NCBI GenBank assembly: GCA_026414565.1
Contig: JAOAIT010000055.1
Location: forward strand, 124,001-188,000
Length of the DNA stretch: 64,000 nt
Direction of reading: 5' to 3'
Origin: Verrucomicrobiia bacterium
GTDB lineage: Bacteria; Verrucomicrobiota; Verrucomicrobiia; Limisphaerales; Fontisphaeraceae
The translations under genes and the position numbers were made by a program. This document shows, in pieces, positions 2,165-53,944 of this stretch. The notes beneath the pieces are model-generated. The model saw only the letters and a program-made list of their open reading frames with translations. It searched no databases and was not told where the DNA came from. How positions within the stretch are numbered: the first letter of the stretch is position 1; the number at the start of each line of letters is the position of its first letter.

Positions 2165-3193
2165 TCATCCGCGCACCCAGGCGGCAGTCATGGCTTGATG
2201 GTTGCAACCGGCAACGCTCACGACTCCCGCCGTGGCCTGGCCTTGGGCCACGGCATCCGCCGCCAGAATCGTCTGCCAGGCGGTGGCGGCCGTGAAGGCG
2301 TTGCCCAGCAGGCTGCGCACTGCAAGCTGTTGGCCCGGCCAGTCGCTCCAGGCTTCCCGCTCGACGCCATCATGGCGCGGCAAGGCCATGCGGCTGTCAC
2401 ACAGCAAAGCCCGGGGGCTGGCAAAAGGTTGCATTTGCTGGCGGGCGGCGCGCATGGCGGCTGATCGTCCTCCCGGCAGCACATAGGCAAAGGGATCGCT
2501 CACCGCGGCCAGGTGCGGCGCGGCCCCAGACGGCGGGCGGCGGCCCAGCAACACGGCGCCGGCGCCTTCACTGGCAATGTGCCGGCGCAGAAACAAACGA
2601 AAGGCGTCGGCGGGCAGCCAGTCCAGTTCTTCGGCGGCCACCACCAGGCATTGCTCGACACGCCCGGCACTCAACCATTGGGCGGCCAGCGCCAGGCCGG
2701 CGAGGTAGGCGGTGTCATCGCCAATGAGCGTATAAACCGGCCCGGTCAGGCCCAGGAGGGCGGCCAGATGACTGGCCGGGGCGTTGAGCACGGTTTCCGG
2801 GAACAACATCGGACTGGCGGTGAGCGGATCCCGAAGTGCCTCGGCATAAAACCGCCGGGTGTAATTCAGTGGCCCCGCCATGGTGCAGAAAATCAGGCCC
2901 AGCCCCGGCCGCGGCGCCAGGGGGGAAGGATGGCCCAGCGCCTCCAACGCCGCAGCCACGGTAAAATGACTGATGTTGCTCGTGCGCCGCAGACGCGGAT
3001 GCGCCAGGAAGCCGGGCCGCGTCGGGGGCGGCGGCACTTTGCGCGCTGGCAGCGGGGTGCTCCAGCCCGGCCGCTCCAGCTCGTTCACCGGCAACGGCTC
3101 ATGGCGCAGCACGGCTTCCCGCAGCGCGGCCACACCCCATCCCGCAGGGCTGACAGCCCCCAAGCCGAGGATATGGAAGGTGATCTGGCTCAT
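2165..3193 (-). CDS. degenerate ketosynthase (chain-length-factor-like)
   Basis: 342 aa; the ATG at 3193 overlaps the TGA of the upstream ketosynthase (ATGA), which fixes the start even though the frame stays open further upstream. It has a thiolase-fold N-terminus (ILGLGAVSPAGWG) and the GP-V-Y segment that normally leads into the nucleophile elbow. The active-site Cys is missing: the aligned position is Asp160 (TLIGDDTAY). No HGTGT His motif is present and the second His region reads LLGNAF. About 70 residues shorter than its neighbour. By analogy with KS-beta/chain length factors it probably forms a heterodimer with the active KS; function is inferred. Confidence 0.75.
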   Translation of the reverse strand: MSQITFHILGLGAVSPAGWGVAALREAVLRHEPLPVNELERPGWSTPLPARKVPPPPTRPGFLAHPRLRRTSNISHFTVAAALEALGHPSPLAPRPGLGLIFCTMAGPLNYTRRFYAEALRDPLTASPMLFPETVLNAPASHLAALLGLTGPVYTLIGDDTAYLAGLALAAQWLSAGRVEQCLVVAAEELDWLPADAFRLFLRRHIASEGAGAVLLGRRPPSGAAPHLAAVSDPFAYVLPGGRSAAMRAARQQMQPFASPRALLCDSRMALPRHDGVEREAWSDWPGQQLAVRSLLGNAFTAATAWQTILAADAVAQGQATAGVVSVAGCNHQAMTAAWVRG

Positions 3194-4431
3194 GGCCGGC
3201 GGCGCAGGATTAGGGTGGCATTGGCCCCGCCAAAACCAAAAGAGTTGCTCAAGGCGTATTCCAACACCGCCTCCTGAGGCTGGTTGACGATGGGCAGGGC
3301 ACAGGCCGGATCGGGCACTTCCCAACCGGCGTTGGGGGGCAGCCATTGCTCGCGCAAGGCCATCAAGCAAACCACCGCCTCCACCGCGCCCGCTCCCCCC
3401 AACAAATGGCCGATGACACCCTTGGTGGAGCTCACGGGGGGGATGGCTTGCTGTGAGGCCGCCCAGCGTTGAATGGCGGCGGCCTCGGCGCTGTCGTTCA
3501 GCGGAGTGCCAGTGCCGTGGGCGTTGATGTAACTCACCTGTTCAGGGCGGAGTCCTGCCATGGCCGTGGCTTCCTGCATGGCCTGAAGCGCCGCCTCGCC
3601 TTGCGGATGAGGCTGGGTCAGGTGGTGGATGTCAGTCGCCGCGCCATAACCCGCAATTTCTCCCAGGATTTCCCCGCCGCGCTGGCGGGCGTGCATTTCG
3701 CTTTCCAGCGCCAGCACGGCGGCGCCTTCGCCCAAGGCCAGCCCGTCCCGCCGGCGGTCAAAGGGCCGGCATTGGGTCAGGGAAAGGGATTGAAGCGAGT
3801 CAAACCCGCAAAACACCAGTTGACTCAGGGCATCGTAACCCCCGGCGAAAACGCGCTCGGCCAGGCCCCAGCGGATCAGATCAAAGGCGTGGCCAATGGC
3901 GTTGGCGCCGGAGGCGCAGGCGTTGGCGATGAAAATCGTGGGGCCGTGAAAACCCAGGGCGCGCTGGACGTTCAGGGCCTGGCGCTGGGCCTGGTAATGC
4001 AGGCCGCGGCCGGCCTGGGCGCGGAAGTTCCGGGGGTGAGTGAGGGCATGGCGAAAATACTCCTCCCCCCGTCCCATGCCGGCGCTGGTGGTGCCCAAAA
4101 CCATGGTGATCGGCTGGTGTTTCTCCCAACCGGCCTGCTCCCAGGCTTCCCGGGCAGCGTGATAAAGCAGATGATTGGCGCGGTCCCAGCGCCGCCATTC
4201 ATGGGGATGAATGCCAGGGGGCGGCTCGGACATCGGCAATTCCACTTCGGCGGCGGTTTTGGCGCGCTGCCGGGACACATCAAACAGGCTTACCGGCCGA
4301 AAGGCGGGTTTTCCCCGTCGAAAACCGGCGGCGTTGGCTTGCCACCCCCGGCCCAGGGCGGTAATGATGCCGGCCCCGGTGATGACCACCCGGGCGGCGG
4401 ATGTGCTGCACTGGCCGGCTTGAAATAACAC
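3190..4431 (-). CDS. beta-ketoacyl-ACP synthase II-type (active KS)
   Basis: 413 aa, FabF-like length. The catalytic triad is intact: Cys172 (NACASGANAIG), His305 (NAHGTGTP) and His342 with Lys337 (STKGVIGHLLGGAG); the C-terminal NSFGFGGANA glycine loop is present. It would catalyse decarboxylative condensation of malonyl-ACP with an acyl-ACP. The start used is a GTG at 4431; RVVITGAG begins at residue 14, so the N-terminus is about 10 residues longer than usual and a later GTG is possible. First gene of a minus-strand operon (KS, KS-like, reductase, ACP, TPR). Confidence 0.9.
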   Translation of the reverse strand: MLFQAGQCSTSAARVVITGAGIITALGRGWQANAAGFRRGKPAFRPVSLFDVSRQRAKTAAEVELPMSEPPPGIHPHEWRRWDRANHLLYHAAREAWEQAGWEKHQPITMVLGTTSAGMGRGEEYFRHALTHPRNFRAQAGRGLHYQAQRQALNVQRALGFHGPTIFIANACASGANAIGHAFDLIRWGLAERVFAGGYDALSQLVFCGFDSLQSLSLTQCRPFDRRRDGLALGEGAAVLALESEMHARQRGGEILGEIAGYGAATDIHHLTQPHPQGEAALQAMQEATAMAGLRPEQVSYINAHGTGTPLNDSAEAAAIQRWAASQQAIPPVSSTKGVIGHLLGGAGAVEAVVCLMALREQWLPPNAGWEVPDPACALPIVNQPQEAVLEYALSNSFGFGGANATLILRRRP

Positions 4432-4582
4432 GCCTCAAAATGCCCCTACGGCGCGCCAAACTTAGGAATATCCCGGGGTGAAGTCAAACTTGGATGATGC
4501 GGCGCGGGCAGATGCGCCGGGGCCCGAGCAACTTTTGGCTTTGAACGGGTTAGTGGAGTAAAGCAAACTGGCGTTGCTGCGT

Positions 4583-5878
4583 ATGCCGCAATTTACTTAC
4601 AAAGCCCGCCGCCGCAACGGCGAGGTGGTCACCGGGGTGTTGGAGGTGCCGGACCGCTCCGCCGCGCTGGCGCAAATCGAGCGTCTGGGGCTGCTGCCCG
4701 TGATGGTGGACCAGCCCAAGGGCGGCGTGGTGGTGGACAAGGCGGCCCGGAAGGGCGTCGGTGCCCCCGCCGCGGCCGGGGCGTCGGCCCTGTTGCCGCC
4801 GGGGCTGCGGGAGCTGTTTCTGCGCCAGCGCCGGCCCAAACTGCAAGAGGTGGCCACCTTTACCCAGCAACTGGCGAATCTGCTGCACTCGGGCATGCCG
4901 CTGACCGTGGCGCTGAACAGCATGACCCATCTGGAAAGCAAGGGTATTCCGGCGGAGGTCAGCCGCCAGTTGCGGCAGGATGTCACCGAAGGCCGGAGCC
5001 TGTCCGATGCCATGGCGCGGCAGCCGCTGATTTTCAGCGACATGTACGTGAACATGGTGCGGGCCGGCGAGCAAAGCGGCGCGCTGGTGGATGTGTTGCG
5101 GCGGCTGGCAGAACATTACACCCGGTTTGCGGAGGTGCAGGCCAAGTTTGTGTCGGCCCTGATCTACCCGGCGGTGGTGACGTTCGTCGGCATTGGCATC
5201 ATCGTTTTCTTCATGACCTTCATGCTGCCGAAATTCAAGGAGATCTTTGAAGGCATCAAGGTCCCCCTGCCGCGGCCCACACAGATTTTGATGAAAGTGG
5301 GCGATTTGATGGTCAGCCCCAGTTTCTGGGTGATCTCCGGCCTGGTGATCTCGGCGCTGGCAGTGCTGTTCATGCGCTTCAAAAACTCCCCGGGCGGCCG
5401 GCGCACGCTGGACGGCTGGAAGCTGCGCCTGCCGGTGGTGGGGCAGATTTTCCGGCTCAACCTGTACGCCCAATTCGCGCGGGTGCTGGCGACGCTGCTG
5501 CAAAATGGCGTGCCGGTGCTCACGGCCCTCAAGATCACTGAGCAGGTCATCCCTAACCAGGTGTTGAAGGAGGCCATTGCCCAGACCCGCGAAGCGGTGA
5601 CCGATGGCAAAACCCTGGCCCAGCCGCTGGCGCGCAGCAAGGTGTTCCCGCAGCTCATGATTGATTTGATCAAGATTGGCGAGGAAACCGGCGATGTGCC
5701 GGGGGCGTTGCGCAATCTGGCCGATACCTATGAAAATGAGTTGAGCTTGGCGTTGCGGGTGATGACCAATTTGATTGAGCCGGTGATGATCATCGTCATG
5801 GCCGTGGGCGTGGGGCTGCTCCTGTTCAGCATCCTCTCGGCCATGTTTGAAATCACCAACAGCATTGGACGCGGATGA
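4583..5878 (+). CDS. gspF: type II secretion / type IV pilus inner-membrane platform protein GspF/PilC
   Basis: 431 aa. Begins MPQFTYKARRRNGEVVTG, the classic GspF/PilC N-terminus, so ATG 4583 is preferred to the TTG nine bases earlier. Two tandem T2SSF domains (about 85-205 and 285-410) repeat the F-x-Q-L-A-x-L-L-xx-G-P motif (FTQQLANLLHSGMP; FARVLATLLQNGVP). Hydrophobic helices lie at roughly 190-220, 245-270 and near the C-terminus. It forms the cytoplasmic-membrane platform that couples the ATPase to pseudopilus assembly. TGA overlaps the next gene (ATGA). Neither ATPase nor secretin genes lie in this window. Confidence 0.92.
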   Translation: MPQFTYKARRRNGEVVTGVLEVPDRSAALAQIERLGLLPVMVDQPKGGVVVDKAARKGVGAPAAAGASALLPPGLRELFLRQRRPKLQEVATFTQQLANLLHSGMPLTVALNSMTHLESKGIPAEVSRQLRQDVTEGRSLSDAMARQPLIFSDMYVNMVRAGEQSGALVDVLRRLAEHYTRFAEVQAKFVSALIYPAVVTFVGIGIIVFFMTFMLPKFKEIFEGIKVPLPRPTQILMKVGDLMVSPSFWVISGLVISALAVLFMRFKNSPGGRRTLDGWKLRLPVVGQIFRLNLYAQFARVLATLLQNGVPVLTALKITEQVIPNQVLKEAIAQTREAVTDGKTLAQPLARSKVFPQLMIDLIKIGEETGDVPGALRNLADTYENELSLALRVMTNLIEPVMIIVMAVGVGLLLFSILSAMFEITNSIGRG

Positions 5879-6387
5879 AGCGGCGGCCGGGCGCAAAGGT
5901 GACAGGTGGACCCGCGGCGGGCGCGGGGCGGGGGGCGTTCACCTTGGTGGAACTGATGATTGTGGTGGCCATCATGGGGCTGGTGGTGGGCATCGGCATC
6001 CCCGCCATCTTCCGGGCGGCCGAGAAAGACGCCCTGCGCGCCACCGTCACCGCCATGATGGAGGCCTGCCAGGCGGCCCGGGCCCAGGCGATTTTAAGCG
6101 GCCAGACGCAGACGCTGATGTTGCGGCCGCGCGAGCGCGCTTTTGAAGCGCCGGGCAAAGGCTCGTTTGTGGTGCCGCAAAACGTGGGCATTGACGCGTT
6201 GGAGGTCAATTTTGTGGACGTGCGCGAATTCGACCACGCGCCGGTGCGCTTTTATCCCAACGGCACCAGTGACGAATTTACCGTGGTGTTCTCCTCCGCC
6301 CGGCATGAGCAGCGTTTCATTGAATTGGACTGCATCACCGCGCTGCCGCGGCTGGAAAATGAGCAGACCACCCGCTACCGGCGTTGA
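5875..6387 (+). CDS. gspH: pseudopilin GspH-like
   Basis: 170 aa. A basic leader of about 20 residues is followed by AFTLVELMIVVAIMGLVVG, the prepilin peptidase site and hydrophobic alpha-1 spine with Glu5; residue -1 at the cleavage site is Ala rather than Gly. The rest is a GspH-like minor pseudopilin globular domain (FYPNGTSDEFTVVF). Translationally coupled to gspF by a 4-base overlap and followed 3 bp later by the next pseudopilin. Product acts in the periplasmic pseudopilus. Confidence 0.85.
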   Translation: MKRRPGAKVTGGPAAGAGRGAFTLVELMIVVAIMGLVVGIGIPAIFRAAEKDALRATVTAMMEACQAARAQAILSGQTQTLMLRPRERAFEAPGKGSFVVPQNVGIDALEVNFVDVREFDHAPVRFYPNGTSDEFTVVFSSARHEQRFIELDCITALPRLENEQTTRYRR

Positions 6388-6390
6388 GAC

Positions 6391-6843
6391 ATGAGATGGC
6401 ATGGACATGAGGGACGACTCCTGAACCCCGCCCGCCGCGCCTTCACCCTGGTGGAGGTGATGATTGCAGTGGGGATCTTTTTTATCGCCCTGCTCTCCAT
6501 CCTGGGGGTGATGACTCGCGGTCTGGCCGCGGCGCGCGGCCTGCAGATCAGCGCGCCGGACACCGGCATGCTGGCGGCGGAGCGCTATGTCACCAACATG
6601 CTCGACGAAGCCACCTCCAGCGGAGATTTTGGCGACGCTTATCCGGGGTTCACCTGGGAGCGCGACGAGTACCCCGTGGCCTCCAACGGCTTGTGGCGGG
6701 CGGATTTCTTCGTCTTCAAACGCACCGATCGGGGCCCGCTGTTGTATGACACCCTGAGCATCTGGCTCTACAAACCGGATTCCAAAATGAAAGGCGGCAT
6801 CAGCCGCCCCGCGTTTGAAAGTGACAACGTCGATTTGCGGTAA
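6391..6843 (+). CDS. gspI: pseudopilin GspI-like
   Basis: 150 aa minor pseudopilin. The leader ends ARRAFTLVEVMIAVGIFF, giving the prepilin methylation/cleavage motif with Ala before Phe1. The position in the F-H-I-J-K gene order and small globular C-domain (PGFTWERDEYPV) support GspI, which nucleates the pseudopilus tip with GspJ and GspK. The stop codon is 4 bp before the gspJ start. Confidence 0.8.
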   Translation: MRWHGHEGRLLNPARRAFTLVEVMIAVGIFFIALLSILGVMTRGLAAARGLQISAPDTGMLAAERYVTNMLDEATSSGDFGDAYPGFTWERDEYPVASNGLWRADFFVFKRTDRGPLLYDTLSIWLYKPDSKMKGGISRPAFESDNVDLR

Positions 6844-6847
6844 GGCC

Positions 6848-7660
6848 ATGAATGCGCCGCACTTTATACCTCCCTGGCACCGGCTCCCGCGTGGCTTCAC
6901 GCTGCTGGAGGTCATGCTGGCGCTGGGCATTTTTTCCATGGTTTTGGTGTCCATCTACGCCACCTGGAGCGCGTTGACCAAGGGCGCCCGCATTGCCGGG
7001 GACGCCACCGCGGCGGTGCAGCGCGCCCGCATGACCGTGCGGGCCATTGAGGACGCCTTGAACACAGCCCAGATTTACGCCGGCAACCCGGATAAATACT
7101 GGTTTGAAGCCCGCAAGGCAGGGGAGTTTTCCGCCCTGAGTCTGACCGCCCGCCTGCCGGCTACTTTTCCCGGCAGCGGTCTGTACGGGGAGCAGCGCCT
7201 GCGGCTGGTGGAATTCATTGTGGAAGAGGGGCCGGACTCGACGCGGGAGTTGCACCTCTATCAAAAAGCGGTGCTGGCGCCGGACAATGAGCCGCCCTAT
7301 CGCATCACGCTGGGGCGGGATGTCACGCTCTTCAAACTCGAGTTCTGGGATCCGCAAAAAAAGGACTGGGTGGACGAGTGGCTCAACCGCCAGACCAACA
7401 GCATCCCCCCGCTGGTGCGGGTGTCGGTGGGCATGGGGCCCCGCTCGCGGCAGTTTGGCGATGACCGCGAGCTGGTTTCGCGCGTCATTGCGCCGGCGGC
7501 GATCGTGGTGCCGCGCGAGTACCAGATCCCGGGCACGGCCCAGCCGCCCACCCTGCCGCCCGGCACGCCGGTGCGCAGCGGCAGCGGCACCGTGACCCCG
7601 CCCGTTACTCCCACCCCGGCGCCGGGGCTGGGCTTCCCGGGCGGCATCCCGGGCAACTGA
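6848..7660 (+). CDS. gspJ: pseudopilin GspJ-like
   Basis: 270 aa from the ATG at 6848; the in-frame GTG 33 bases earlier lies inside gspI and is not needed. Prepilin motif LPRGFTLLEVMLALGIFSMV has the canonical Gly-Phe cleavage site and Glu5. The central domain (residues about 55-210) resembles GspJ, with paired strands reading ELHLYQKAVLAP and DVTLFKLEFWDPQKKDWVDEW. A Pro/Gly/Thr-rich C-terminal tail of about 50 residues (TPAPGLGFPGG) is unusual and may be a flexible linker in the pseudopilus tip. Confidence 0.82.
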   Translation: MNAPHFIPPWHRLPRGFTLLEVMLALGIFSMVLVSIYATWSALTKGARIAGDATAAVQRARMTVRAIEDALNTAQIYAGNPDKYWFEARKAGEFSALSLTARLPATFPGSGLYGEQRLRLVEFIVEEGPDSTRELHLYQKAVLAPDNEPPYRITLGRDVTLFKLEFWDPQKKDWVDEWLNRQTNSIPPLVRVSVGMGPRSRQFGDDRELVSRVIAPAAIVVPREYQIPGTAQPPTLPPGTPVRSGSGTVTPPVTPTPAPGLGFPGGIPGN

Positions 7661-7670
7661 ACCAGGCACG

Positions 7671-8792
7671 ATGCGCACCCGCCCACCATCTCCCGTTCAC
7701 CGTGGCATTGCCCTCATCATTGTGATGGTGGTCATCACCTTTTTTAGCATGCTGGCCGCAGCGTTTGCCTACCGCATCAAGGTGGAGACACGGCTGGCGC
7801 GCAATGCCGCTTACAATGCGGAAATGGACTGGCTGGGGCGCTCGGGGGTGGAACTGGCCAAATATGTCATCGGGGTGCAGCGCACCATTCCCAATGAGCC
7901 GTACGATTCGCTCAATCAAAAATGGGCCGGGGGTCCGGGCAATTCCAACAGCATCCTCGCCAACGTCCGCCTGAATGACATCGAGCTGGGCCGGGGGCGG
8001 TTCAGTGTGAAAATCACCGACTGTGAGCGCAAAATCAACATCAACCTGGCCAACGAAATCATCCTCAATCATGTGCTGGCGGTGATTGGCGTGGAGGCGT
8101 CCGAGTCGGCGGCCATTGTCGGCTCCATTCTGGACTGGATTGATCCGGATGATCAGACCCATTTGAACGGCGCGGAAAATGATTATTACCTTTCGCTGGA
8201 CCCGCCCTACCGCGCCAAAAATGGGCCCTTGGACGACATCAATGAATTGTTGCTCGTCAAGGGGGTGACGCCGGAGCTTTTCTGGGGGCCCAAATACTCC
8301 GGGCCGCCCACGGTCACCCAGCGCTCACGCACCCGCTTTGGGTTGGAGCCGGAGCCGGTCACTTACTCGGTGGGGCTGGTGGATGTGTTCACGCCGTTGT
8401 CGGCGCGTTTTGTGAACATTAACACGGCCAGCGCCACCGTGTTGCAAATGTGCCCGGGCGTGGATGAAACCATCGCCCAGGCCATCATCGAGCAACGCGC
8501 CGGCCCGGACGGGGTGGACGGGACGGAGGATGACACGCCCTTTCGCAACGTCATGGAATTAACCCGCATCCCCGGTCTCTTTGGGCCGGGAGCCGCGCCC
8601 CCGGCGCCGGGACAGCCAGGCCGGCCGGCGGCGCCGCCAGCCAGTCCGCTCACGAGTTTTTTCAGCACGCAAAGTTTTACCTTCGAGGTGGAGGTGGACG
8701 TGCGCCTGGACGACCAGCAGCGCACGTATTACGCCATCCTCCGGCGCGTGGACCAGCGCAACGTGCAGGTGCTCAACCTGTGGTGGCGCTGA
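7671..8792 (+). CDS. gspK: general secretion pathway protein GspK
   Basis: 373 aa. Single hydrophobic N-terminal segment GIALIIVMVVITFFSMLAAAFAYR with little prepilin Glu5 character, as is normal for GspK. Then the GspK domain with DWIDPDD and the helix-hairpin-helix-like stretch FVNINTASATVLQMCPGVDETIAQAIIEQR near residues 245-275. GspK caps the pseudopilus with GspI/GspJ. Last gene of the F-H-I-J-K run, 10 bp after gspJ. A Pro-rich insertion (around 305-325) follows PGLFGPGAAPPAPG. Confidence 0.87.
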   Translation: MRTRPPSPVHRGIALIIVMVVITFFSMLAAAFAYRIKVETRLARNAAYNAEMDWLGRSGVELAKYVIGVQRTIPNEPYDSLNQKWAGGPGNSNSILANVRLNDIELGRGRFSVKITDCERKININLANEIILNHVLAVIGVEASESAAIVGSILDWIDPDDQTHLNGAENDYYLSLDPPYRAKNGPLDDINELLLVKGVTPELFWGPKYSGPPTVTQRSRTRFGLEPEPVTYSVGLVDVFTPLSARFVNINTASATVLQMCPGVDETIAQAIIEQRAGPDGVDGTEDDTPFRNVMELTRIPGLFGPGAAPPAPGQPGRPAAPPASPLTSFFSTQSFTFEVEVDVRLDDQQRTYYAILRRVDQRNVQVLNLWWR

Positions 8793-32655: not shown

Positions 32656-33975
32656 ATGAGCGAACAATCTCCTTCGGCACCGATGCCTGCCGCCAAGCCG
32701 GCGGCCCCCAAAATCACGGTGATTGGCGTGGGGGGAGCGGGCGGCAACCTGGCCGCCCTGCTGGCGCGCGCCCCTTGGCCGGGCATCCGTTGTGTGGCGG
32801 TGGACACCAGTTGGCGCGCCTTGCAAATGCGCGCCGGGGTGGAAACGTTCCTGCTGGGCCGCCCGGTGCTGGGCGGCCTCAGCGCCGGCGGTGACCCCAA
32901 GCAGGGAAGAGCGGCAGCCGAAGCCAGCGAAGCCGAGCTGCCGGCGCTGGTTGCCGGTGCGGAGGTGGTTTTTCTGCTGGCGGGGCTGGGTGGGGGCACG
33001 GGCAGCGGCGCCGCGCCGGTGATTGCCCGGGCAGCCAGGGCCGCCGGCGCCTGGGTGGTGGCCATCGTTGCCATGCCCCTCGAAATGGAAGGCTCGCGCC
33101 GCCGACGCCAGGCCATCCTGGCCCTGAGCCGCCTGCGCGACGAAGCCGACATCACCATACCCCTGGATAATCAGACGCTCCTGGAAAAGGGCGATGCCGG
33201 CCAGACCGTTCCGCAGCTCCTCTCTGCGGCCAACGAGCGGCTGGCGAATGTGGTGGCCGCCTGGTGGCGCCTGCTGGCCCTGCCCGGGTTGATGCAACTG
33301 GACCTGGGCGCCCTGCGCACGGCCACCGCCGGCCGGGCGGTGGAATGTCAACTGGCCGCCGCCGAGGCGGCGGGGGACAATCGTACTTTTGAGGTCTGGT
33401 CCCAATTAAGCCAGCAGTTGGGAGCGGGCCAGGCCGGCGAATGGCAGAAATGGGGGTTCATGGTGGTGGGCGTTGCGGGCGGTGAGGACTTGCTGCCGGC
33501 CGATCTGGAGTGGCTGAGTGCCCAGCTCCGGCAGCAGGCCCCCCAAGCCCACCTCGTCTGGGGCGTGGCGTGTGATCCGGCTTTGCGCGGACGCCTGCTT
33601 GTTACTTTAATGGCCTCCACCCTGGCAGGACGGGAAGTTGAACCGGTCACGCCCGCCGAAGCCCCGGCGGCTGAAGCCCCGCCGCGGCCCGCACCCGCGG
33701 ACGAATCCGAAGCCCAAAGTTTTCTCCCTCCCGCCGCGCCGCGTCCACCGGCGCGCATCGTGCCGCCGCCTCCGGAAGTCCCGCCCGAAAAAGCCCGCCA
33801 GCATTTTCGCAAACAGGGCGGGCGTGTGCGCGGCAAACGGGCCGGGGCGGAACAAGTCATGCTGCCGCTGGAGGTGGTTTCCAAAGGGCGCTTCGATAAA
33901 AGTGATCCCACCATCCGGGATGGTGAGGATTTGGACGTCCCCACCTACATTCGCCGCGGGGTCAAACTCAATTAG
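32656..33975 (+). CDS. ftsZ: divergent cell division GTPase FtsZ
   Basis: 439 aa. N-terminal GVGGAGGN (24-31), tubulin signature Gly112-Gly-Gly-Thr-Gly-Ser-Gly118 (Ser in place of the usual Thr), and the conserved C-terminal FtsA-binding peptide DLDVPTYIRRG. The T7 synergy loop reads GLMQLDLGALRT: Asp216 matches E. coli Asp209, but the position of catalytic Asp212 is Ala219 and Asn207 is Gln214. The nucleotide-contact NTD also reads VDTS. A Pro-rich linker spans about 330-390. Family membership is firm from motifs and position after ftsA; GTPase rate and polymer dynamics are likely altered. Last gene of the cluster. Confidence 0.9.
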   Translation: MSEQSPSAPMPAAKPAAPKITVIGVGGAGGNLAALLARAPWPGIRCVAVDTSWRALQMRAGVETFLLGRPVLGGLSAGGDPKQGRAAAEASEAELPALVAGAEVVFLLAGLGGGTGSGAAPVIARAARAAGAWVVAIVAMPLEMEGSRRRRQAILALSRLRDEADITIPLDNQTLLEKGDAGQTVPQLLSAANERLANVVAAWWRLLALPGLMQLDLGALRTATAGRAVECQLAAAEAAGDNRTFEVWSQLSQQLGAGQAGEWQKWGFMVVGVAGGEDLLPADLEWLSAQLRQQAPQAHLVWGVACDPALRGRLLVTLMASTLAGREVEPVTPAEAPAAEAPPRPAPADESEAQSFLPPAAPRPPARIVPPPPEVPPEKARQHFRKQGGRVRGKRAGAEQVMLPLEVVSKGRFDKSDPTIRDGEDLDVPTYIRRGVKLN

Positions 33976-46853: not shown

Positions 46854-49800
46854 TCAGCATCCATTCCTTTTTTCCCGCGGCTTGCCGGCGCGGTGGATGC
46901 GGAGGGTGAAACCGCGGCCGTTCTCAAAAGGCTCGACGGTGGCGGTGACTTCCAGGACGGGATGGCGGACGGTGGCCAGGCCGTAGCTGCGGTAGGTGGG
47001 GGCAAAGAGTTCGGTCTCCACCATGCCCGTCCAGTCCGCCAGCGTCAGGAATTTCATCGGCTCGCCGGTGCTCTGGTGGAAGAGCCGCTGCTCGATGACC
47101 AGGCCGCAGGTCACAACGGACTGGCCCACAAATTCACCCAGCCGCGCCACCGGGCAATACGTCTCCCACGCCACGTGCTCAAAGAGTTCGAGCGGATGAC
47201 CGCTGACGGGGAAACCCAACAGCTCGGCCTCCCCTTCCAGGCGCTGGCGGCGGGTGGGTTCCTGCAACGGGGCATCGCCCAGGCGTTCAGCCCCGGGCGG
47301 CGGCAGGAGCCAGCCCTGGCCGCGGCCCGCCTCGGCGGGACCAAAGGCGCGCCGCAGCCATTGCGCCTCCCAGAACAGCCGTGTGCGGCTCAGGCCAAAT
47401 TCGTCCAGCGCCCCGGCGCGGATGAGCAGCTCCATTTCCTCCGGCGCGGGGCCGACGCGCGCGTAGAAATCGCGCACCGACGCAAAGGGGCCCTGTCGCC
47501 GCGCGGCCAGGAGCCGTTCACCAGTGGCCTGCGTCAGTCCTTTGATTTGGGTTACCGGCACGCGAATGGCCCGCGCGGGGAAGGCCGGGCGGGAGGGGGC
47601 CGCCTTCTCCGATGGGAGGGGCTCCGGGACGGAATGAGGCCTGTTCACCACCATGAAGCCCGGCCCCGGTTCATTGACGCTGGGCGGCAGGAGGGGGAGG
47701 CCCAGCCGGTGGCATTCGAGCACATAGACCAGCAGATCATAAAAGCCCTTGCCGTGGCTCAGCACCGCCGCCATGAACTCCGCCGGATGGTATCGCTTGA
47801 GCCAGGCGGAGAGGTACGCTTCCACCGCGTAGGCCGTGGAGTGGGCCTTGCAAAAGGCGTACCCGGCAAAGCCGGTGACCAGATCCCACACCTCGCGGAT
47901 GACGGCCTCAGGGTGTCCGCGCGCGCGGGCGGCGGCGAAAAATTCGCGGCCGATTTCCTGGATGGTTTCCAGCTTTTCCCTGCCCAGCGCGCGGCGGAGC
48001 TGATCGGCGCGGCCGGGCGGCAGGCCGGCAAAGGCCTCGCAAATTTGCAGGACGTGCTCCTCATACACCACCAGGCCGAACGTGCCTCTCAGGCACGGCT
48101 CCAGCGAAGGATGCGGATAATCGGGCGGCTCCAGCCCTTGGTAGCGGCGGCAGAACTTTTGTTTTTTCTGCTCGTTGGCGGCGCCGGGGCGGATGACGCT
48201 GACCAGCGCCACCAGGCCGTCTATTTCGCGGATGTTGCTCTGCCGGCAAAGGCCCACCATGGCAGGTGACTCGATATGATGCACGGCGCGCGCCTGGCCG
48301 CCGGCAATCAGCTCCCAGACGGCGGGATCATCCCACGGGGCGAGGTCCGGCAGCCCGCCGTCCAGCGGCGCCAACGTTTCGGTTTCCCCGGCGGCCGGGC
48401 GCCGGCCGGCGTTTTCAGGCGGCGCCGTTTCCCGGGATATTTCCGCTAGGGCGTCGCGCACCACGGCCAGGCCGCCCTGGGCCAGAATGTCCAGTTTCAC
48501 CAGGCCAAGAGCCTCGACGGCGTCCATGTCGTACTGTGTGGCGGGCCAGCCTTTGTGGGCGCGGAAGGTGGGCGCAAGCTCGTGCATCGGCTGGCGCGAG
48601 AGCACCACGCCGCAGGGGTGCATCTTGGGATACCGCGGGAAACCGTCCAGAAACTCCGCCATCTCCAGGGCGGAGCGGTACGGCTCTTCGTCCAGCGGCA
48701 GATCGCGGCACTCAGGGCTGGCCCGCAGCAGTGGCACAAGCCCGCGGGCGCGGCCCCAGGGGAAATGCTCGGTGAAACGCCGCACCTGATGCTCGGACAG
48801 GCCGAGGGCCTTGCCCACGTCGCCCACCGCGCCGCGGGCCTGGTAGGTGGAGAACCCGCCCACCACCGCGCAATGCTCCGGGCCGTATTTCTCAAAGAGC
48901 AGCGCGATGACATCGTCTTTGCAATCGTGGGGGAAATCCACGTCAATATCCGGCAGCTTGTGCATGGCCATGCGCTCCCGGTTGAGAAAGCGGCGGAAGT
49001 AGAGCTCAAAGCGCAGCGGGCACACCTGGCTGATGCCCAGGCAATAGCAGACCAGCGAATCAGCCGCGCTGCCGCGGGTGAGCCAGTCAATGCCCCGCCG
49101 GCGGCACTCGCGCAGCAAATCCCACACCACCAGGAAATAGTCCTCGTAGCCCACCTCCCCAATGATGCCCAGCTCCTCCTCCAGTTGCGGCCGCACCTGC
49201 GCCCAGCGTTCAGGGTAACGGCGGCGCGCGCCTTCCATCACCAGCCGCCGCAAAAACGCGCGCGCGCTGGAGCCGTCCGGCGGTTGAAACGCCGGGAATT
49301 GCGGCGGGCCGAAGGGGAAGCGAAAACCCCGGCAGCGCGCAGCAATCTCGGCATTGCCGGCCAGGGCGCGGGGGGGCAGGCGGAGGGACTGGCGTAACTC
49401 GGCAGGCGTGCGCCAGTGCAGCTCGCCGGCGAGCTTGGCGGGATGCTCCTGCCGCAGTAGGGTGAGGGTGCGGATGGCCTCCACCACCTCGAATTTCCAG
49501 CGGTCCTGGGGCGTGGCGTAATGCACCGGCTGCCCCCACGCCAGGGGCAGATGCGCCGGAAAACGGGCGGCGTCCTCGGGGGCGCACACCAGCCCGTAAA
49601 AACGGCCGGGAAACCACGCTGCCAGCCGCGCGTCCGCCCCCACCGCCAGCAGGCCGTCCGTCCCTTCCTCCAACTGTTGCCGCGACCATTGCCCCGGCGG
49701 CAGGCTGAGCCACCGGCAGAGCCGGGCATAGCCTTGCTGGTTTTCCACGAACAAAACCAGGGGCCGGCCTTCGAGGGTGATTTCTGCGCCCACCAGCGGT

Positions 49801-51242
49801 TGCAGGCCGGCGGCCTGGGCCTGCTGCACAAACTCCGGCGCGCCATGCAGATGGCCCAGATCGGCCAGCCCCAGCGCGGGCGTTTCGTGCTGTTGCGCCA
49901 GCCGGATGATGTCGCGAATGGCCAGGGTGGACGCCAGAAATGAATAATAACTGCGCACCCGCAACGGAATGACGGGCACGGTGGCCGGGCGCCGGAACGT
50001 CCCGGGCGTGGCCACCGCCTTGCTGCAGCCTGCTTGCCGTGGGGGGGAGTGCTCCCGGGCGGGTTCAGTGGGGGCGCTGCGCTCCGCCAGCAACAGGTCA
50101 TGCCCGCGCTGGACCACGCCCCGGCCGAACTTTTCGCGCAGGGCATCCACGGCGGCGGCCAGGCGGCGGCGCGCGGCAGGGCGGCCATCACCGGGCAGCA
50201 GCTCCAGGGCGCCGGTCAAGTGGCCATCATACAGATGGGTCAGCCGCAACGAGACAAGGCGGAGGCTCACGCGGCGGCGCCAGGCCCGTTTCAGGAGACT
50301 GCGCAGGCGGCCGTACACTTCGGTTTCCACGCACACCGGCTCAGGCAGGCTTTCACTGCATTGATCCTCCGCCATGTCATTGTAACGCACCTTCACGGTG
50401 AGCGTCCGGGCGGCCTGGCCGGTGGCCCGCAGCCTGGCAAACAGCTCGTCGGCCATGCGGCGCAGGACAGCCTGCGCGTATTCCTCGTCGGTGATGTCCT
50501 GCGCAAAGGTTTCCTGCTGGCCCAGCGATTTGGCCGGGGCGCGGCTGGGCACCACGGGGCGATCATCCAGACCGCGCGCAAAGCGATGCAGCGTTCCCGC
50601 GGCGGAACCCACCAGGACTTCGAGCAGCTCCGGCGGGGTGGCCGCGATCTGGCCCACCCGCGCCAGCCCGGCGGCATCCAGACGCGCCCCCAGTTTGGGC
50701 CCCACGCCCGGCAGCCAGCGGTTGGGCAGCGGCGCCAGAAACCCGGCCTCCCTGCCCGGCGGGACTTCAAGCAGCGCGGCGGGCTTGTTCAGCTTGGAGG
50801 CCACCTGGCTCACGAGCTTGTTGGTGGCCACGCCCTCGCTGACGGAGATTTTGAGCGATTGCCGGATCGCTTCGCGCAGGCGCCGGGCCACCTCAAGGGG
50901 CGGACGCCGCGCCCCGGTTACGTCCAGGTAGCCCTCGTCAATCGAGGCCACCTCCACCTCCGGCGTGAAGTCGTAGGCGTAGGAAAACATCCACTGCGAA
51001 AATTGCTCGTACTTTGCAAAATCCCCCGGCAGCAGGATCAACTGCGGACACAACCGGCGGGCCAGCGCCGCGGGCATGGGAGTGTAAATGCCAAACCGCC
51101 GCGCCTCGTACGAGGCGGACGCAATGATGCCGCGCTTTTCCCCGCCCACGGCAACGGGCCGTCCGCGCAGGCGCGGGTCCGCCGCCTGCTCCACCGAGGC
51201 GAAGAAGGCATCGGCGTCAAGGTGGATGATGCCGTTGAACAT
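46854..51242 (-). CDS. dinB-dnaE2: fused Y-family DNA polymerase (DinB) and error-prone DnaE2/ImuC polymerase
   Basis: 1462 codons without interruption. Residues 1-385 are a complete Pol IV-type enzyme: Asp9 and Asp11 in HLDADAFFASVE, steric-gate Phe14, catalytic Asp102-Glu103 in SIDEGYLD, helix-hairpin-helix (LPGVGPKLGARLDAAGL) and little finger (240-350). Unlike ImuB, its catalytic residues are kept. A basic Pro-rich linker of about 35 residues leads to residues 425-1462, a C-family polymerase III alpha: degenerate PHP (Arg428/Arg430 in place of the metal-binding HxH), TRGSAADS, PDIDVDF with Asp765 and Asp767, third Asp918 (VKLDIL), HhH (IKGLTQATGERLL), and OB fold. It ends just after the OB fold, as in DnaE2/ImuC, lacking the tau-binding domain of DnaE1. 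Lies downstream of lexA. Probably a translesion mutasome in one chain. Confidence 0.92.
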   Translation of the reverse strand: MFNGIIHLDADAFFASVEQAADPRLRGRPVAVGGEKRGIIASASYEARRFGIYTPMPAALARRLCPQLILLPGDFAKYEQFSQWMFSYAYDFTPEVEVASIDEGYLDVTGARRPPLEVARRLREAIRQSLKISVSEGVATNKLVSQVASKLNKPAALLEVPPGREAGFLAPLPNRWLPGVGPKLGARLDAAGLARVGQIAATPPELLEVLVGSAAGTLHRFARGLDDRPVVPSRAPAKSLGQQETFAQDITDEEYAQAVLRRMADELFARLRATGQAARTLTVKVRYNDMAEDQCSESLPEPVCVETEVYGRLRSLLKRAWRRRVSLRLVSLRLTHLYDGHLTGALELLPGDGRPAARRRLAAAVDALREKFGRGVVQRGHDLLLAERSAPTEPAREHSPPRQAGCSKAVATPGTFRRPATVPVIPLRVRSYYSFLASTLAIRDIIRLAQQHETPALGLADLGHLHGAPEFVQQAQAAGLQPLVGAEITLEGRPLVLFVENQQGYARLCRWLSLPPGQWSRQQLEEGTDGLLAVGADARLAAWFPGRFYGLVCAPEDAARFPAHLPLAWGQPVHYATPQDRWKFEVVEAIRTLTLLRQEHPAKLAGELHWRTPAELRQSLRLPPRALAGNAEIAARCRGFRFPFGPPQFPAFQPPDGSSARAFLRRLVMEGARRRYPERWAQVRPQLEEELGIIGEVGYEDYFLVVWDLLRECRRRGIDWLTRGSAADSLVCYCLGISQVCPLRFELYFRRFLNRERMAMHKLPDIDVDFPHDCKDDVIALLFEKYGPEHCAVVGGFSTYQARGAVGDVGKALGLSEHQVRRFTEHFPWGRARGLVPLLRASPECRDLPLDEEPYRSALEMAEFLDGFPRYPKMHPCGVVLSRQPMHELAPTFRAHKGWPATQYDMDAVEALGLVKLDILAQGGLAVVRDALAEISRETAPPENAGRRPAAGETETLAPLDGGLPDLAPWDDPAVWELIAGGQARAVHHIESPAMVGLCRQSNIREIDGLVALVSVIRPGAANEQKKQKFCRRYQGLEPPDYPHPSLEPCLRGTFGLVVYEEHVLQICEAFAGLPPGRADQLRRALGREKLETIQEIGREFFAAARARGHPEAVIREVWDLVTGFAGYAFCKAHSTAYAVEAYLSAWLKRYHPAEFMAAVLSHGKGFYDLLVYVLECHRLGLPLLPPSVNEPGPGFMVVNRPHSVPEPLPSEKAAPSRPAFPARAIRVPVTQIKGLTQATGERLLAARRQGPFASVRDFYARVGPAPEEMELLIRAGALDEFGLSRTRLFWEAQWLRRAFGPAEAGRGQGWLLPPPGAERLGDAPLQEPTRRQRLEGEAELLGFPVSGHPLELFEHVAWETYCPVARLGEFVGQSVVTCGLVIEQRLFHQSTGEPMKFLTLADWTGMVETELFAPTYRSYGLATVRHPVLEVTATVEPFENGRGFTLRIHRAGKPREKRNGC

Positions 51243-51557
51243 CCGCAGGGAAGGGGAGGTTGGGGGGCGTTACCAGGTTGCCAGGTGGCAGGGAACAAAA
51301 GAGTATTTTGCTGAATCACCCCCCGCGCTTAAGGGGGGTTCAGCCGGATCATGAGCCCCCCCGGCGCCTCCGGCGATGCGGTTCGTCCAGGAAACGGCGG
51401 CGGGGCGTATGGGCCGGGCCGGATCCTGCTTCGCCAAAGCAGGCCCTCGGCGGCTGATCGCATACCTCGCCCCGCAGAACTTCCGGGCTGCCAGACCGGC
51501 TTCCCCGTCTGCAAAAGTTAAAAACCTTTCACTGTTTTCCTGCATAACTCCCTCCGC
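51243..51557. other. 315-bp gap between lexA and the polymerase fusion
   Basis: No confident gene. Two inverted repeats are seen: CTGAA-TCA-CCCCCC / GGGGGG-TTCAG (51311-51343) and CCTGCTT / AAGCAGG (51425-51443). A minus-strand frame 51545-51270 (91 codons) exists but has mixed codon use and no family match. No copy of the lexA palindrome and no clear Shine-Dalgarno sequence before the polymerase ATG are visible, so how the fusion is transcribed (read-through from lexA or own promoter) is open. Confidence 0.55.
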
Positions 51558-52181
51558 TCACCCCACCTTCCCGCGCACCAGCCCCACCATCACCCCCTGA
51601 ATGACCAGCTCGGCGGCGGGGATGAGCTTGGGATACCTGGGATTTTCGGCCTTGAGGTAGGGGCGGCCACGCTCCACCACATACGTCTTCAGCGTGCTTT
51701 CGTTGTCAATCAACGCCGCCACCACTTCGCCGGGCCGGGGAATCCGGCCGTGTTCCAAAATCACAATGTCGCCGTCTATGATGTGCCGCCCGATCATCGA
51801 ATCGCCCCGCACCCGCAGCGCAAACGTCCGCGCCGTGGGTTGAATGCCCAGCGTGCGCACATCCACCGACACGCACCCCTCGGCCTCCTGCTGCCGGTCC
51901 TCGGCAAAGCCGGCCGGGATGCTGCCAAACAGCGGGATGTCCACCACCGCCTGCCGCAGCCGCGCCAGGGGCGAGGCCAGGCGCCACGAGCGCGCCTTGC
52001 CCGGCTCATGCGCCAGCCAGCCCTTGCGCTCCAGCGCCGCCACGTGACACGCCGCCGCCCGCGGGCTGCGGAAACCAAAATGCGCCGCAATTTCGCGCAG
52101 GCTGGGCATCGGCCCGCCCGCCTGCTGCCGGGCCTGAAACAGCGCCAACACCCGTTTTTGTTGTTCCGTCAACGGTCTCAT
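51558..52181 (-). CDS. lexA: SOS repressor LexA
   Basis: 207 aa. N-terminal winged helix (residues 1-66; SLREIAAHFGFRSPRAAACHVAALERKGWL as in LexA but with a distinct recognition helix). Self-cleavage site Ala90-Gly91 (SIPAGFAED). Catalytic Ser128 (RGDSMIG) and Lys165 (STLKTYVV) of the S24 domain. RecA-stimulated autocleavage would derepress its regulon. The gene lies between DUF1638 and the polymerase fusion on the same strand, with a palindrome directly over its promoter. Confidence 0.95.
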   Translation of the reverse strand: MRPLTEQQKRVLALFQARQQAGGPMPSLREIAAHFGFRSPRAAACHVAALERKGWLAHEPGKARSWRLASPLARLRQAVVDIPLFGSIPAGFAEDRQQEAEGCVSVDVRTLGIQPTARTFALRVRGDSMIGRHIIDGDIVILEHGRIPRPGEVVAALIDNESTLKTYVVERGRPYLKAENPRYPKLIPAAELVIQGVMVGLVRGKVG

Positions 52182-52185
52182 AATA

Positions 52186-52222
52186 ACTATACAAATGTAT
52201 AGTAATCGGGGAAAGAAATCAA
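52186..52222 (-). promoter_or_regulatory. lexA promoter with palindromic operator ACTATAC-N4-GTATAGT
   Basis: Perfect 18-bp inverted repeat 52186-52203: ACTATAC, spacer AAAT, GTATAGT. On the minus strand it contains a -10-like TATACA (52201-52196), 15 bp after a -35-like TTGATT (52222-52217). The palindrome ends only 4 bp before the lexA ATG, so the mRNA leader must be very short. Geometry (5-bp half-site ending in C, N4, G) matches N4-spaced LexA boxes, but the half-site TATAC differs from the GAAC or TGTTC types. Autoregulation by LexA is inferred. Confidence 0.65.
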
Positions 52223-52282: not shown

Positions 52283-53044
52283 TCAGGAGATGGCACGGAT
52301 CACGCCGTCATCGTAGGAAGGTTCAATCCGCGCCCCGGCGGGGACTTCCAGAAAATCCTCGCCGCTCCAATCCCCGTGCAACCAGCGGCGCAGGAGGGTC
52401 AAGTCCCCCGCCAATTCCTCAAAAGTCCAGCCGCGTTTCTGGCAAATCTCCTGCACCTGCGCCCGCAAATTGAGCACGCGGGTGAAATCATACTCAATCA
52501 AGATGCCGTGGGTATAGTGGCTGAGCCATTCATTCATGGCCTCGACCAGGTACTGGGCGGCTTCCTCCCCATATTTCTCCACCCAGGCGGTGTAGGTGTC
52601 GCTGCCTTCGGCCACCGGGCCGGGGCGGTTGGGCAGGAGATTCACCCCCTGCGGCAGGGCCCGCTGGCCGCGGCGGGCCATGCACTCCAGCCAGCCGCAG
52701 GTGTAATAATACGCGCCGGGACGTTCCTGCTGCTGTTGCGCGTAACGCTGGCGCGACCCGAGAAAAAAGGTGATGCAATCATGCGCGCGCGGCACGATGA
52801 GCCGCGTGTGGCGCGCCTGCAGGCCGGCAATGAGGTTGCCGCACAGGCCATACCCCAGCAGGATGGCGTCGTACTTGCCCTCCGGCACGGCGTCCACCCG
52901 CGCCTGCACCTGGCCGCGGCCGTGGGCGGGGTTGTCATGATAGCCCTGGGGGAGGAATTCCAAATCCAGCAACAGCGGCGAAGTGGCGGCCAGAAAGCAC
53001 ACCTCGCGCACCATGATTTCACAGGCCAGGACTTTGCAGAGCAT
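52283..53044 (-). CDS. DUF1638 family protein
   Basis: 253 aa. Family features: VLACEIMVREVCFLAA at the N-terminus, ILLGYGLCGNLIAGLQARHTRLIVPRAHDCITFFLGSR, TCGWLECM, and IEYDFTRVLNLRAQVQEICQKRGW. DUF1638 proteins occur near corrinoid-dependent methyltransferases in other organisms; no such gene is here. Conserved Cys residues (in ACEIM, GLCGN, HDCI, TCGW) could bind metal. Starts 3 bp after the ThuA gene and ends 101 bp before lexA. Confidence 0.85.
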   Translation of the reverse strand: MLCKVLACEIMVREVCFLAATSPLLLDLEFLPQGYHDNPAHGRGQVQARVDAVPEGKYDAILLGYGLCGNLIAGLQARHTRLIVPRAHDCITFFLGSRQRYAQQQQERPGAYYYTCGWLECMARRGQRALPQGVNLLPNRPGPVAEGSDTYTAWVEKYGEEAAQYLVEAMNEWLSHYTHGILIEYDFTRVLNLRAQVQEICQKRGWTFEELAGDLTLLRRWLHGDWSGEDFLEVPAGARIEPSYDDGVIRAIS

Positions 53045-53047
53045 GGC

Positions 53048-53785
53048 TCAAGGCCGCCGGGCCACCCAGGCGATGGCCTGGGCCAGCAGTTTCCGGAAGC
53101 TGGGGTTGGTGTAGGCCTGCCCGTCATGGCCAAGCTGAATGGCCGCCACCCGGGCGTTGGCGTAGGTCTTGGCCCACGCCACGATGGGACTGCTGCTCGG
53201 CGTGTCACACAACAAAAGCGGGATCACGTCAGGATGAATATACAGCCCCCCGTAAGTTTCATCGTGAATCTCAAAATCTTTCAACCCTCGCGTGATGGGA
53301 TGGGCGGTGGAGGCGATGCGCACCTGCATCACCACATCATGCTTGAAGGTGGAGCCGGGCCGTTCCACGCCGTCGAGCACCTCCTTTTTCAAGACATATT
53401 TGCCGCCGATGATCTGGCGATACTCCGGCCAGTCCTGGTAATTGGCCAGGCTGTGATGCAGGGCCACCAGCCCCTTGCCCTCCTGCAGGCGCGCCACGAA
53501 ATTGGATTTGGCCGTGGAGGAAATCGGCTGCCACATGTCATACAGCACCATCACGTCCCACTGCCGCGCGGCCTCGGCTTGCCAATAGTCCTGGGCCTGC
53601 GGATGCACCGCCGCCTGAAAGGTGATGTCCGGGTTGTCCTTGAACACCTGCCAGAACTCGTTGGTTTGGTAGTCATGTCCGCCGGTAATGACCAGCACCC
53701 GGATTTTCTCGGCCGCCGTCAGCGAACCGGCCAGCAGAGCGCCGCCCAGCACGGTGGCGATCAACAAACAGCGCAAGGATTTCAT
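53048..53785 (-). CDS. exported ThuA domain protein
   Basis: 245 aa from ATG 53785, chosen because it begins a signal peptide (MKSLRCLLIATVLGGALLAGSLTAA). The rest is a ThuA/type-1 glutamine amidotransferase-like flavodoxin fold: IRVLVITGGHDYQTNEFWQVF, MVLYDMWQPISS, GKGLVALHHSLANYQDWPEY, and RVAAIQLGHDGQAY. ThuA proteins are implicated in trehalose/disaccharide use; many Verrucomicrobiota encode exported versions. Upstream partner of DUF1638 (3 bp apart). Divergent from the sugar transporter. Confidence 0.87.
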   Translation of the reverse strand: MKSLRCLLIATVLGGALLAGSLTAAEKIRVLVITGGHDYQTNEFWQVFKDNPDITFQAAVHPQAQDYWQAEAARQWDVMVLYDMWQPISSTAKSNFVARLQEGKGLVALHHSLANYQDWPEYRQIIGGKYVLKKEVLDGVERPGSTFKHDVVMQVRIASTAHPITRGLKDFEIHDETYGGLYIHPDVIPLLLCDTPSSSPIVAWAKTYANARVAAIQLGHDGQAYTNPSFRKLLAQAIAWVARRP

Positions 53786-53944
53786 GCCCCTACTATGCTG
53801 CCAGACCCGGCGAAAGAAAAGGGAAAGATTGACTTTTCCCTGCCCGTGCCCCCTCCCCACGAATTGCCCTTTGCAGCGGTTTGCGCGCCGGCCCGTGTCT
53901 TTCCTTTCTTGATTCCTGTCTTCCGCCCCGCCTACAGTTTCGCC

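Follow-up and report, generated by a model that had tools for sequence, protein, structure and literature searches.

Does a single reading frame that joins a Y-family DNA polymerase to a C-family one encode a genuine protein, and to which of the known mutasomes would such a protein be related? The question is posed by a gene, dinB::dnaE, in a 64,000-nucleotide stretch of a Verrucomicrobiia bacterium genome (GCA_026414565.1, contig JAOAIT010000055.1, positions 124,001 to 188,000; the whole of this stretch is referred to below as the window, and coordinates are counted from its first nucleotide). We conclude that the fusion is real and is a widespread one-chain form of a known type of mutasome, the mechanism of which we infer. 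What appears to be new is the single chain: the partnership of an active Y-family polymerase (PolY) with DnaE2 has itself already been described in the form of separate genes.

A single frame with two polymerases

The frame runs on the minus strand, with its ATG at 51242 and its stop ending at 46854, and upstream of this ATG it stays open for just 9 codons more (1471 in total); read on the plus strand, 46854-51242 contains stops. A preliminary description of this DNA had reported an uninterrupted 1462-codon frame pairing a Y-family with a C-family polymerase, which is borne out, the strand being minus. The gene and its parts are as follows.

46854..51242, minus strand: fused dinB::dnaE gene, 1462 codons plus stop, ATG to TGA
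50232..51242, minus strand: DinB (Y-family) half, residues 1-337, with catalytic D9, D102, and E103 (Pfam IMS and IMS_C, PDB sequence matches to DNA polymerase IV, fold matches)
49263..49970, minus strand: PHP domain region, residues 425-660, with the first metal-site histidines substituted (Pfam PHP, alignment with the genome's own DnaE1)
47703..49262, minus strand: C-family polymerase core (palm, thumb, fingers), residues 661-1180, with D765, D767, and D918 (Pfam, fold matches to Pol III alpha)
47379..47702, minus strand: helix-hairpin-helix region, residues 1181-1288 (Pfam HHH_6)
46869..47135, minus strand: C-terminal OB-fold-like strands, residues 1370-1458 (predicted model)

Pfam domains succeed one another along the chain (IMS 8-150, IMS_C 238-337, PHP 427-514, DNA_pol3_alpha 663-921, finger 969-1108, and HHH_6 1181-1288), and among NCBIfam hits the DinB models match one half and the DnaE models the other, with none of the 23 spanning both. 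By alignment, D765, D767, and D918 correspond to D401, D403, and D555 of E. coli Pol III alpha. The two sets of catalytic residues named in the preliminary description (Asp9, Asp102, and Glu103; Asp765, Asp767, and Asp918) are all present, and each of the six is invariant across all 70 fusions aligned (69 genome loci, introduced below, plus the window).

In the predicted structure, the DinB and PHP parts are confident, with a predicted template modeling score (pTM) of 0.51 that assigns the parts no fixed mutual placement. The DnaE half has a mean predicted local distance difference test score (pLDDT) of 87.5. The DinB half matches solved DinB folds, its closest solved structures being DinB (Pol IV), and the DnaE half matches solved structures of Pol III alpha (E. 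coli, M. tuberculosis, and 2hpi from Thermus aquaticus). The PHP histidines that read HxHxH in the genome's own DnaE1 read PxRxR in the fusion, whose C-terminus stops after the OB-like strands, without the last 95 to 130 residues of replicative alpha (the fusion profile ends at position 1090 of 1220 in 2hpi and 1065 of 1160 in 5fku). DUF6504, which we take as ImuB-C since one ImuB matched it at its C-terminus, was absent from the chain in the Pfam search. Insertions make some related frames much longer (1681 codons in locus L013 and 1800 in L133), and L129 (frame 4080-7745) carries a variable loop of repeated SRQDACTT-like units.

The source genome (G000; 71 contigs, 97% complete) contains, by Pfam searches, two C-family genes, namely a replicative-type DnaE and the fusion, and a single Y-family gene, the fusion itself.

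Distribution of the fusion

A scan of genome contigs returned 253 confirmed relatives, the best 80 of which form our locus set; the remainder may include fusions from other phyla. In 69 of these 80, one frame crosses both halves; the remaining 11 comprise six cut at a contig end, four that are interrupted, and one (L068) aligning from residue 73 onward. By taxon label, 76 of the 80 belong to the Verrucomicrobiota, two are called only "bacterium," and two (L066 and L085) are labeled Klebsiella pneumoniae, which we take for mislabeled bins. Fusion loci include one from a cultured isolate, Brevifollis gellanilyticus NBRC 108608 (L087), and one that appears to come from a single-cell genome (L052, SCGC). 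A genome of the same genus as the window's (G001), assembled as one 4.7-Mb contig, carries the fusion at 89% identity; therefore, the fusion is not an assembly join.

Mapping the phylogenetic spread, as the preliminary description had proposed, showed that within the window's order the family (split and DinB-only members counted) reaches E ≤1e-110 in 125 of the 320 genomes searched, in 68 of the 154 good-quality genomes, and in 66 of 118 genera. When the phylum was sampled evenly, matches at 1e-150 came from 5 of 387 genomes, the source genome among them. Because the thresholds were strict and two candidates were scored for each genome, absences in both searches are soft. A genome search with the DnaE of G061, an unfused relative discussed below, mostly matched replicative DnaE.

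Other settings were also considered for the fusion. In IMG/VR, the best 80 of 281 relatives match the DnaE half alone, starting at residue 392 or later, and a phage origin was rejected because none of these 80 matches the DinB half. Membership in a defense system was likewise rejected, PADLOC having returned no families. In a plasmid collection, at least three records have one place covering at least 80%; among the top rows, H1, H2, and H4 are annotated with separate genes, and H3 (79%, unannotated) has two frames. Two plasmids show longer gene rows: lexA, DUF72, Y-family, and dnaE in Desulfosarcina ovata (L114, 1022-6797; typed as mobilizable), and lexA, RecA-like, Y-family, and error-prone dnaE in Candidatus Manganitrophus (L115, 111-6060), the second protein of which retains a Pfam RecA match.

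Relation to ImuA-ImuB-DnaE2

The preliminary description had labeled the C-family half DnaE2/ImuC and compared the fusion to mutasomes with a catalytically dead ImuB. A C-family tree, built by a quick method, does not sustain the label: the fused DnaE halves fall into a single clade, within which the split genes also nest, as does row L022 at a contig edge. The sister of this clade is the unfused DnaE of G061, from another class of the same phylum, followed by the PolY-linked DnaE of Bacteroidota dinB-dnaE operons and of Desulfosarcina (Shimodaira-Hasegawa-like approximate likelihood ratio test [SH-aLRT] support of 99). Six ImuB-linked or similar DnaE2 form a separate group (SH-aLRT 100), DnaE1 also stands apart, and an Abditibacteriota DnaE falls on the ImuB-linked side (91, long branch). 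With the DnaE half outside the ImuB-linked DnaE2, we rejected the idea of a fused ImuB-ImuC.

A closer comparison than dead ImuB is offered by the Bacteroidetes, for which a putative mutasome of an active PolY, DnaE2, and presumably RecA, separately encoded and lacking ImuA, has been described (PMC6511836 and PMC12926913). The preliminary description had also supposed that fusion removes the need for ImuA; because the separate-gene Bacteroidetes pair equally lacks it, the absence of ImuA is not a result of the fusion. Although Streptomyces DnaE is counted as DnaE2B (PMC12926913), it groups elsewhere in our tree, which makes a DnaE2B label for the fusion tentative.

Neither ImuB nor a convincing ImuA was found in the source genome. 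An ImuB query from G007 was silent in G000 and G001 and found its target in all four control genomes (G007, G014, G044, and G049). An ImuA query from G014 matched G014 itself at 1e-168, G007 at 2e-58, G044 at 8e-49, and G049 at only 3e-4; in G000 and G001, it gave one 26-bit match each, to a frame of 380 or 393 codons that we take as RecA. This verrucomicrobial ImuA was used instead of a Novosphingobium query, which matched none of six genomes. In the window's order, ImuB-type DnaE2 occurs in 63 of 320 genomes and seldom alongside the fusion family: the two coincide in 5 genomes versus 24.6 expected (Fisher p 2e-9, with kinship ignored and two candidates per genome searched). The five, found by comparing the two lists by eye, are G040, G458, G660, G665, and G694, of which G665 enters the fusion list at 8e-111, the very edge of the threshold.

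Fusion and probable fission

Separate genes occur both outside and inside the fused clade. In G061, outside it, a separate matching DinB lies on a different contig from dnaE, with other open frames adjacent. In Bacteroidota, dinB precedes dnaE, and of three annotated operons, two show an overlap of 1 or 4 bases between the genes. Within the clade, G480, G481, and G482 keep dinB beside lexA with dnaE on another contig, and G053 (L028/L029) has dinB and dnaE on different contigs, with no lexA seen near dinB. The split-gene rows L123-L130 cover G480, G481, G482, G471, and G473; dinB of G473 likewise stands beside lexA, any dnaE found being on a different contig, and G471 has an interrupted dinB copy (L172).

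Forcing the fused rows together is rejected by the approximately unbiased (AU) test for both halves (p-AU 6e-42 for DnaE and 1e-5 for DinB), and the DnaE and DinB trees require at least 4 and 5 state changes, respectively. Judged from these trees, the simplest history would be one fusion followed by at least two fissions, the alternative being re-fusion. Relatives whose gene has split again weaken the fixed 1:1 stoichiometry that the preliminary description had offered as a reason for the fusion.

In the small-genome family f32, a DinB of the fused type stands alone (L030 of G033, 4586-5785; L171 of G640, 3120-4319), its placement being tentative; the clamp-motif position of L030 reads EELPLF, and no DnaE of the fused type is listed for G033 or G640.

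The junction and candidate clamp-binding motifs

Between and beyond the catalytic domains, four short features bear on how the chain might be held in place.

50196..50210, minus strand: ALELL, residues 345-349, degenerate, where unfused relatives carry the clamp motif QxxLF (alignment)
50085..50186, minus strand: RecA-N-terminus-like motif, residues 353-386, with a helix at 353-372 in the model (moderate confidence)
49971..50072, minus strand: linker, residues 391-424, predicted disordered and evolving fast
47304..47318, minus strand: QGWLL, candidate clamp-binding motif, residues 1309-1313, aligned to QADMF of E. coli alpha

Beyond the little finger, DinBs of unfused relatives carry a clamp motif (QIDLF, QINLF, or QMDLF in all four Bacteroidota aligned, QRPLF in Desulfosarcina, and QLDLF in G061); among the fusions, Qxx[LMI][FLM] occurs there in 1 of 70 (L058). 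The DnaE half carries Qx[WYF][LMI][FLIM] in 51 of 70, and a further 8 have the last three letters alone, leaving 11 with neither.

The window's RecA-like motif scores 48 against residues 1-40 of E. coli RecA, a value reached by none of 5,000 shuffles, and the consensus motif scores 36, reached by 4 of 5,000. This likeness suggests that RecA may take the place of ImuA.

Between G000 and G001, the ratio of nonsynonymous to synonymous substitution rates (dN/dS) over six segments is lowest in the DinB half (0.06), followed by the C-terminus (0.11), the core (0.12), the PHP region (0.13), the RecA-like stretch (0.45), and the linker (0.78, with pLDDT <50 at residues 391-417). Both halves are thus under strong purifying selection, and the linker is not.

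The adjoining lexA gene

Directly upstream of the fusion is a gene for LexA.

51558..52181, minus strand: lexA (Pfam LexA_DNA_bind and Peptidase_S24; TIGR00498 above its cut-off)
52186..52203, minus strand: candidate LexA box, the perfect palindrome ACTATACATTTGTATAGT, immediately before the lexA start

The arrangement is conserved: of 67 loci that contain the 5′ half together with 800 bp or more of upstream sequence (seven loci were too short), 64 have a lexA-like gene in the same orientation no more than 800 bp away, the exceptions being L058, L074, and L097, and the gap to the fusion is at most 60 bp in 42 of the 64. From the 80 loci and the window, 59 lexA starts have both a helix-turn-helix (HTH) domain and full upstream sequence; 52 of them show a palindrome with arms of at least 6 between −60 and +6 (shuffled mean 6.0, maximum 11 in 100 rounds), and 9 have TGTTC-N4-GAACA. 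In the window, the gap (51243-51557) measures 315 bp and is strongly foldable, versus 54 bp in G001; no significant copy of it was found elsewhere in the window or in the compared stretches of G001, and Pfam recognizes nothing in a 91-residue frame that lies between the two genes. Sites with three mismatches to the window's box lie at 33154 and 39810. Farther upstream of lexA, on the same strand, are genes for a DUF1638 protein (52283-53044) and a ThuA-domain protein (53048-53860).

Open reading frames resembling lexA are present in 69 loci of the 80 plus the window, 59 with an HTH and 10 without. Two of these 10 stand apart: L059 runs into a contig end, and L106 (L106 5403-5951 / L007 900-1448, G042), with a truncated HTH, belongs to another lineage, distinct from the Verrucomicrobiaceae case. 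The latter consists of nine Verrucomicrobiaceae-type loci (L086, L087, L090, L091, L092, L102, L104, L107, and L135) in which an S24 peptidase of 150 to 151 residues, without the LexA DNA-binding domain, is encoded directly upstream of the fusion. All four of the nine that were tested match Pfam Peptidase_S24 only, LexA and UmuD models scoring below their cut-offs, and their alignment displays Ala-Gly, Ser, and Lys, which we take to be the self-cleavage residues. Three HTH queries found no HTH beside these genes, making a frameshift unlikely. TGTTC-N4-GAACA precedes the gene in nine of nine by inspection and in eight by an automatic search with 6-base arms. Such a protein may be an analogue of UmuD that arose anew from LexA beside the fused polymerase.

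Proposed function and alternative readings

The fusion is probably an SOS translesion polymerase that holds an active DinB-type and an active DnaE2-like polymerase in one chain, a covalent form of the mutasome of active PolY, DnaE2, and RecA proposed for Bacteroidota. Upon DNA damage, RecA would be activated and LexA removed, and the lexA-dinB::dnaE operon would then be expressed. The RecA-like helix behind the DinB half could dock onto RecA while QGWLL of the DnaE half grips the sliding clamp; the DinB half would insert opposite the lesion, and the flexibly tethered DnaE half would extend, its degenerate PHP domain presumably affording no proofreading. One stable cellular protein, SOS induction, contacts with RecA and the clamp, and a division of labor between the sites are features that we infer.

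Several observations weigh against this interpretation or parts of it. The full clamp pattern of the DnaE half is missing in 19 of 70 fusions, and the RecA-motif score is uneven over the 70, ranging from 14 to 48 with a median of 30. The 315-bp gap of the window lacks a second box, so co-transcription of lexA and the fusion is only presumptive there, and a genome-wide search for the window's box (≤2 mismatches) returned the lexA site only, versus five sites for a reversed control pattern. In the tree, the Bacteroidota and Desulfosarcina branches are long, and Streptomyces DnaE lies away from the fusions on the ImuB-linked side (support 91, very long branch). The mutual exclusion with ImuB-type DnaE2 is subject to the limits given with it. 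Finally, the unlinked-gene relatives G053, G480, G481, and G482 nest in the fused clade, with fused members of the same families, meaning that the covalent bond is not indispensable, and their split DinBs have not regained a clamp motif, which the idea of a DinB carried by DnaE does not foresee.

That idea belongs to a bolder proposal, which we regard as possible but doubtful: a self-contained, Pol V-like one-chain mutasome in which the DinB half, having no clamp anchor of its own, would be carried by the clamp-bound DnaE half and insertion and extension would be passed on in cis, with the upstream S24 peptidase (LexA in the window, the HTH-less UmuD-like protein in Verrucomicrobiaceae) as its RecA-activated subunit, a UmuD analogue re-made from LexA.

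Other explanations dispense with one chain or with one of its active sites. The fused frame might yield two working proteins, through internal initiation or proteolysis of the linker, leaving DinB and DnaE loosely associated or separate; a linker that is predicted to be disordered and is unconstrained, the unlinked genes of close relatives, and an ATG in the junction of 16 of 70 fusions fit such a scheme, but the window's junction contains no ATG, an ATG or GTG preceded by a Shine-Dalgarno-like sequence occurs in only 5 of 70, and in 69 of 80 loci the frame runs on without a stop through a linker that is otherwise free of constraint, so that we consider two products unlikely. Somewhat harder to credit is that a single polymerase site matters, the Y-family half being chiefly a scaffold or the DnaE half chiefly a tether: the Y-family member is the organizer of known mutasomes, and dead ones, ImuB and Streptomyces DinB2, play this part with DnaE2 (PMC6511836), but the invariance of all three catalytic carboxylates in each half, the low dN/dS of the DinB half, and the lack of DUF6504 argue otherwise.

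Were the DnaE half a true ImuC, the protein would be a fused ImuB-ImuC with ImuB catalysis kept or regained. The NCBIfam error-prone DnaE model is indeed among the hits, and long-branched quick trees leave a margin of error, but its 497 bits fall below the cut-off of 939 and below the 594 bits of the DnaE1-type model PRK05673 (itself under its own cut-off), and the placement of the fused clade with Bacteroidota and Desulfosarcina, apart from the six ImuB-linked or similar DnaE2, makes this very improbable. An assembly or annotation artifact merging neighboring genes can practically be dismissed: given the 1- or 4-base overlaps of dinB and dnaE in Bacteroidota, a single error could join them, but the fusion recurs in the single-contig genome, the cultured isolate, and many independent bins, and we rejected an assembly or frameshift join on the strength of these independent genomes.

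On evolutionary grounds, the conservation of the gene fusion argues strongly that the two polymerases cooperate, a partnership previously inferred from gene neighborhoods and models (PMC6511836 and PMC12926913). A purified single chain would allow the hand-over from insertion to extension to be tested with single-site mutants, without rebuilding a multiprotein mutasome.

Comparison with known systems

The preliminary description knew of no characterized example of this fusion; the literature searched likewise yielded no report, the available sections of PMC6511836, PMC12926913, and PMC8565304 containing no mention of a dinB-dnaE fusion.

The fusion most resembles the putative DnaE2B-PolY-RecA mutasome of Bacteroidetes, with which it shares an active Y-family polymerase paired with DnaE2, the order dinB then dnaE, the lack of ImuA and ImuB, a RecA-N-terminus-like motif on the Y-family member, and, in the tree, the nearest C-family relatives outside the phylum. 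It differs in being one chain rather than two proteins, in the degenerate clamp motif of its Y-family half (kept in four of four Bacteroidota), and in its regulator: the fusion adjoins lexA, whereas the Bacteroidetes dinB-dnaE operons, reported to be under SOS-like control, have noncanonical regulators (PMC8565304).

ImuA-ImuB-DnaE2 (DnaE2A/ImuC) is likewise a pair of Y-family and C-family polymerases whose DnaE has a degenerate PHP domain, tied to SOS control as the fusion probably is, but its dead ImuB with ImuB-C, its ImuA, and its DnaE2A clade membership have no counterpart found for the fusion. The replicative DnaE1, present separately in the source genome, differs in possessing intact PHP histidines and the C-terminal (tau-binding) part. 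DinB (Pol IV) shares the fold and active site of the N-terminal part and is a single short chain, whereas in the fusion this part belongs to a chain of two polymerases. E. coli Pol V (UmuD′2-UmuC-RecA) lacks a C-family polymerase, and its UmuC retains the clamp motif QLNLF; like the fusion, it has a RecA-N-terminus-like motif after the little finger, and some relatives of the fusion have a gene for a UmuD-like S24 peptidase directly upstream.

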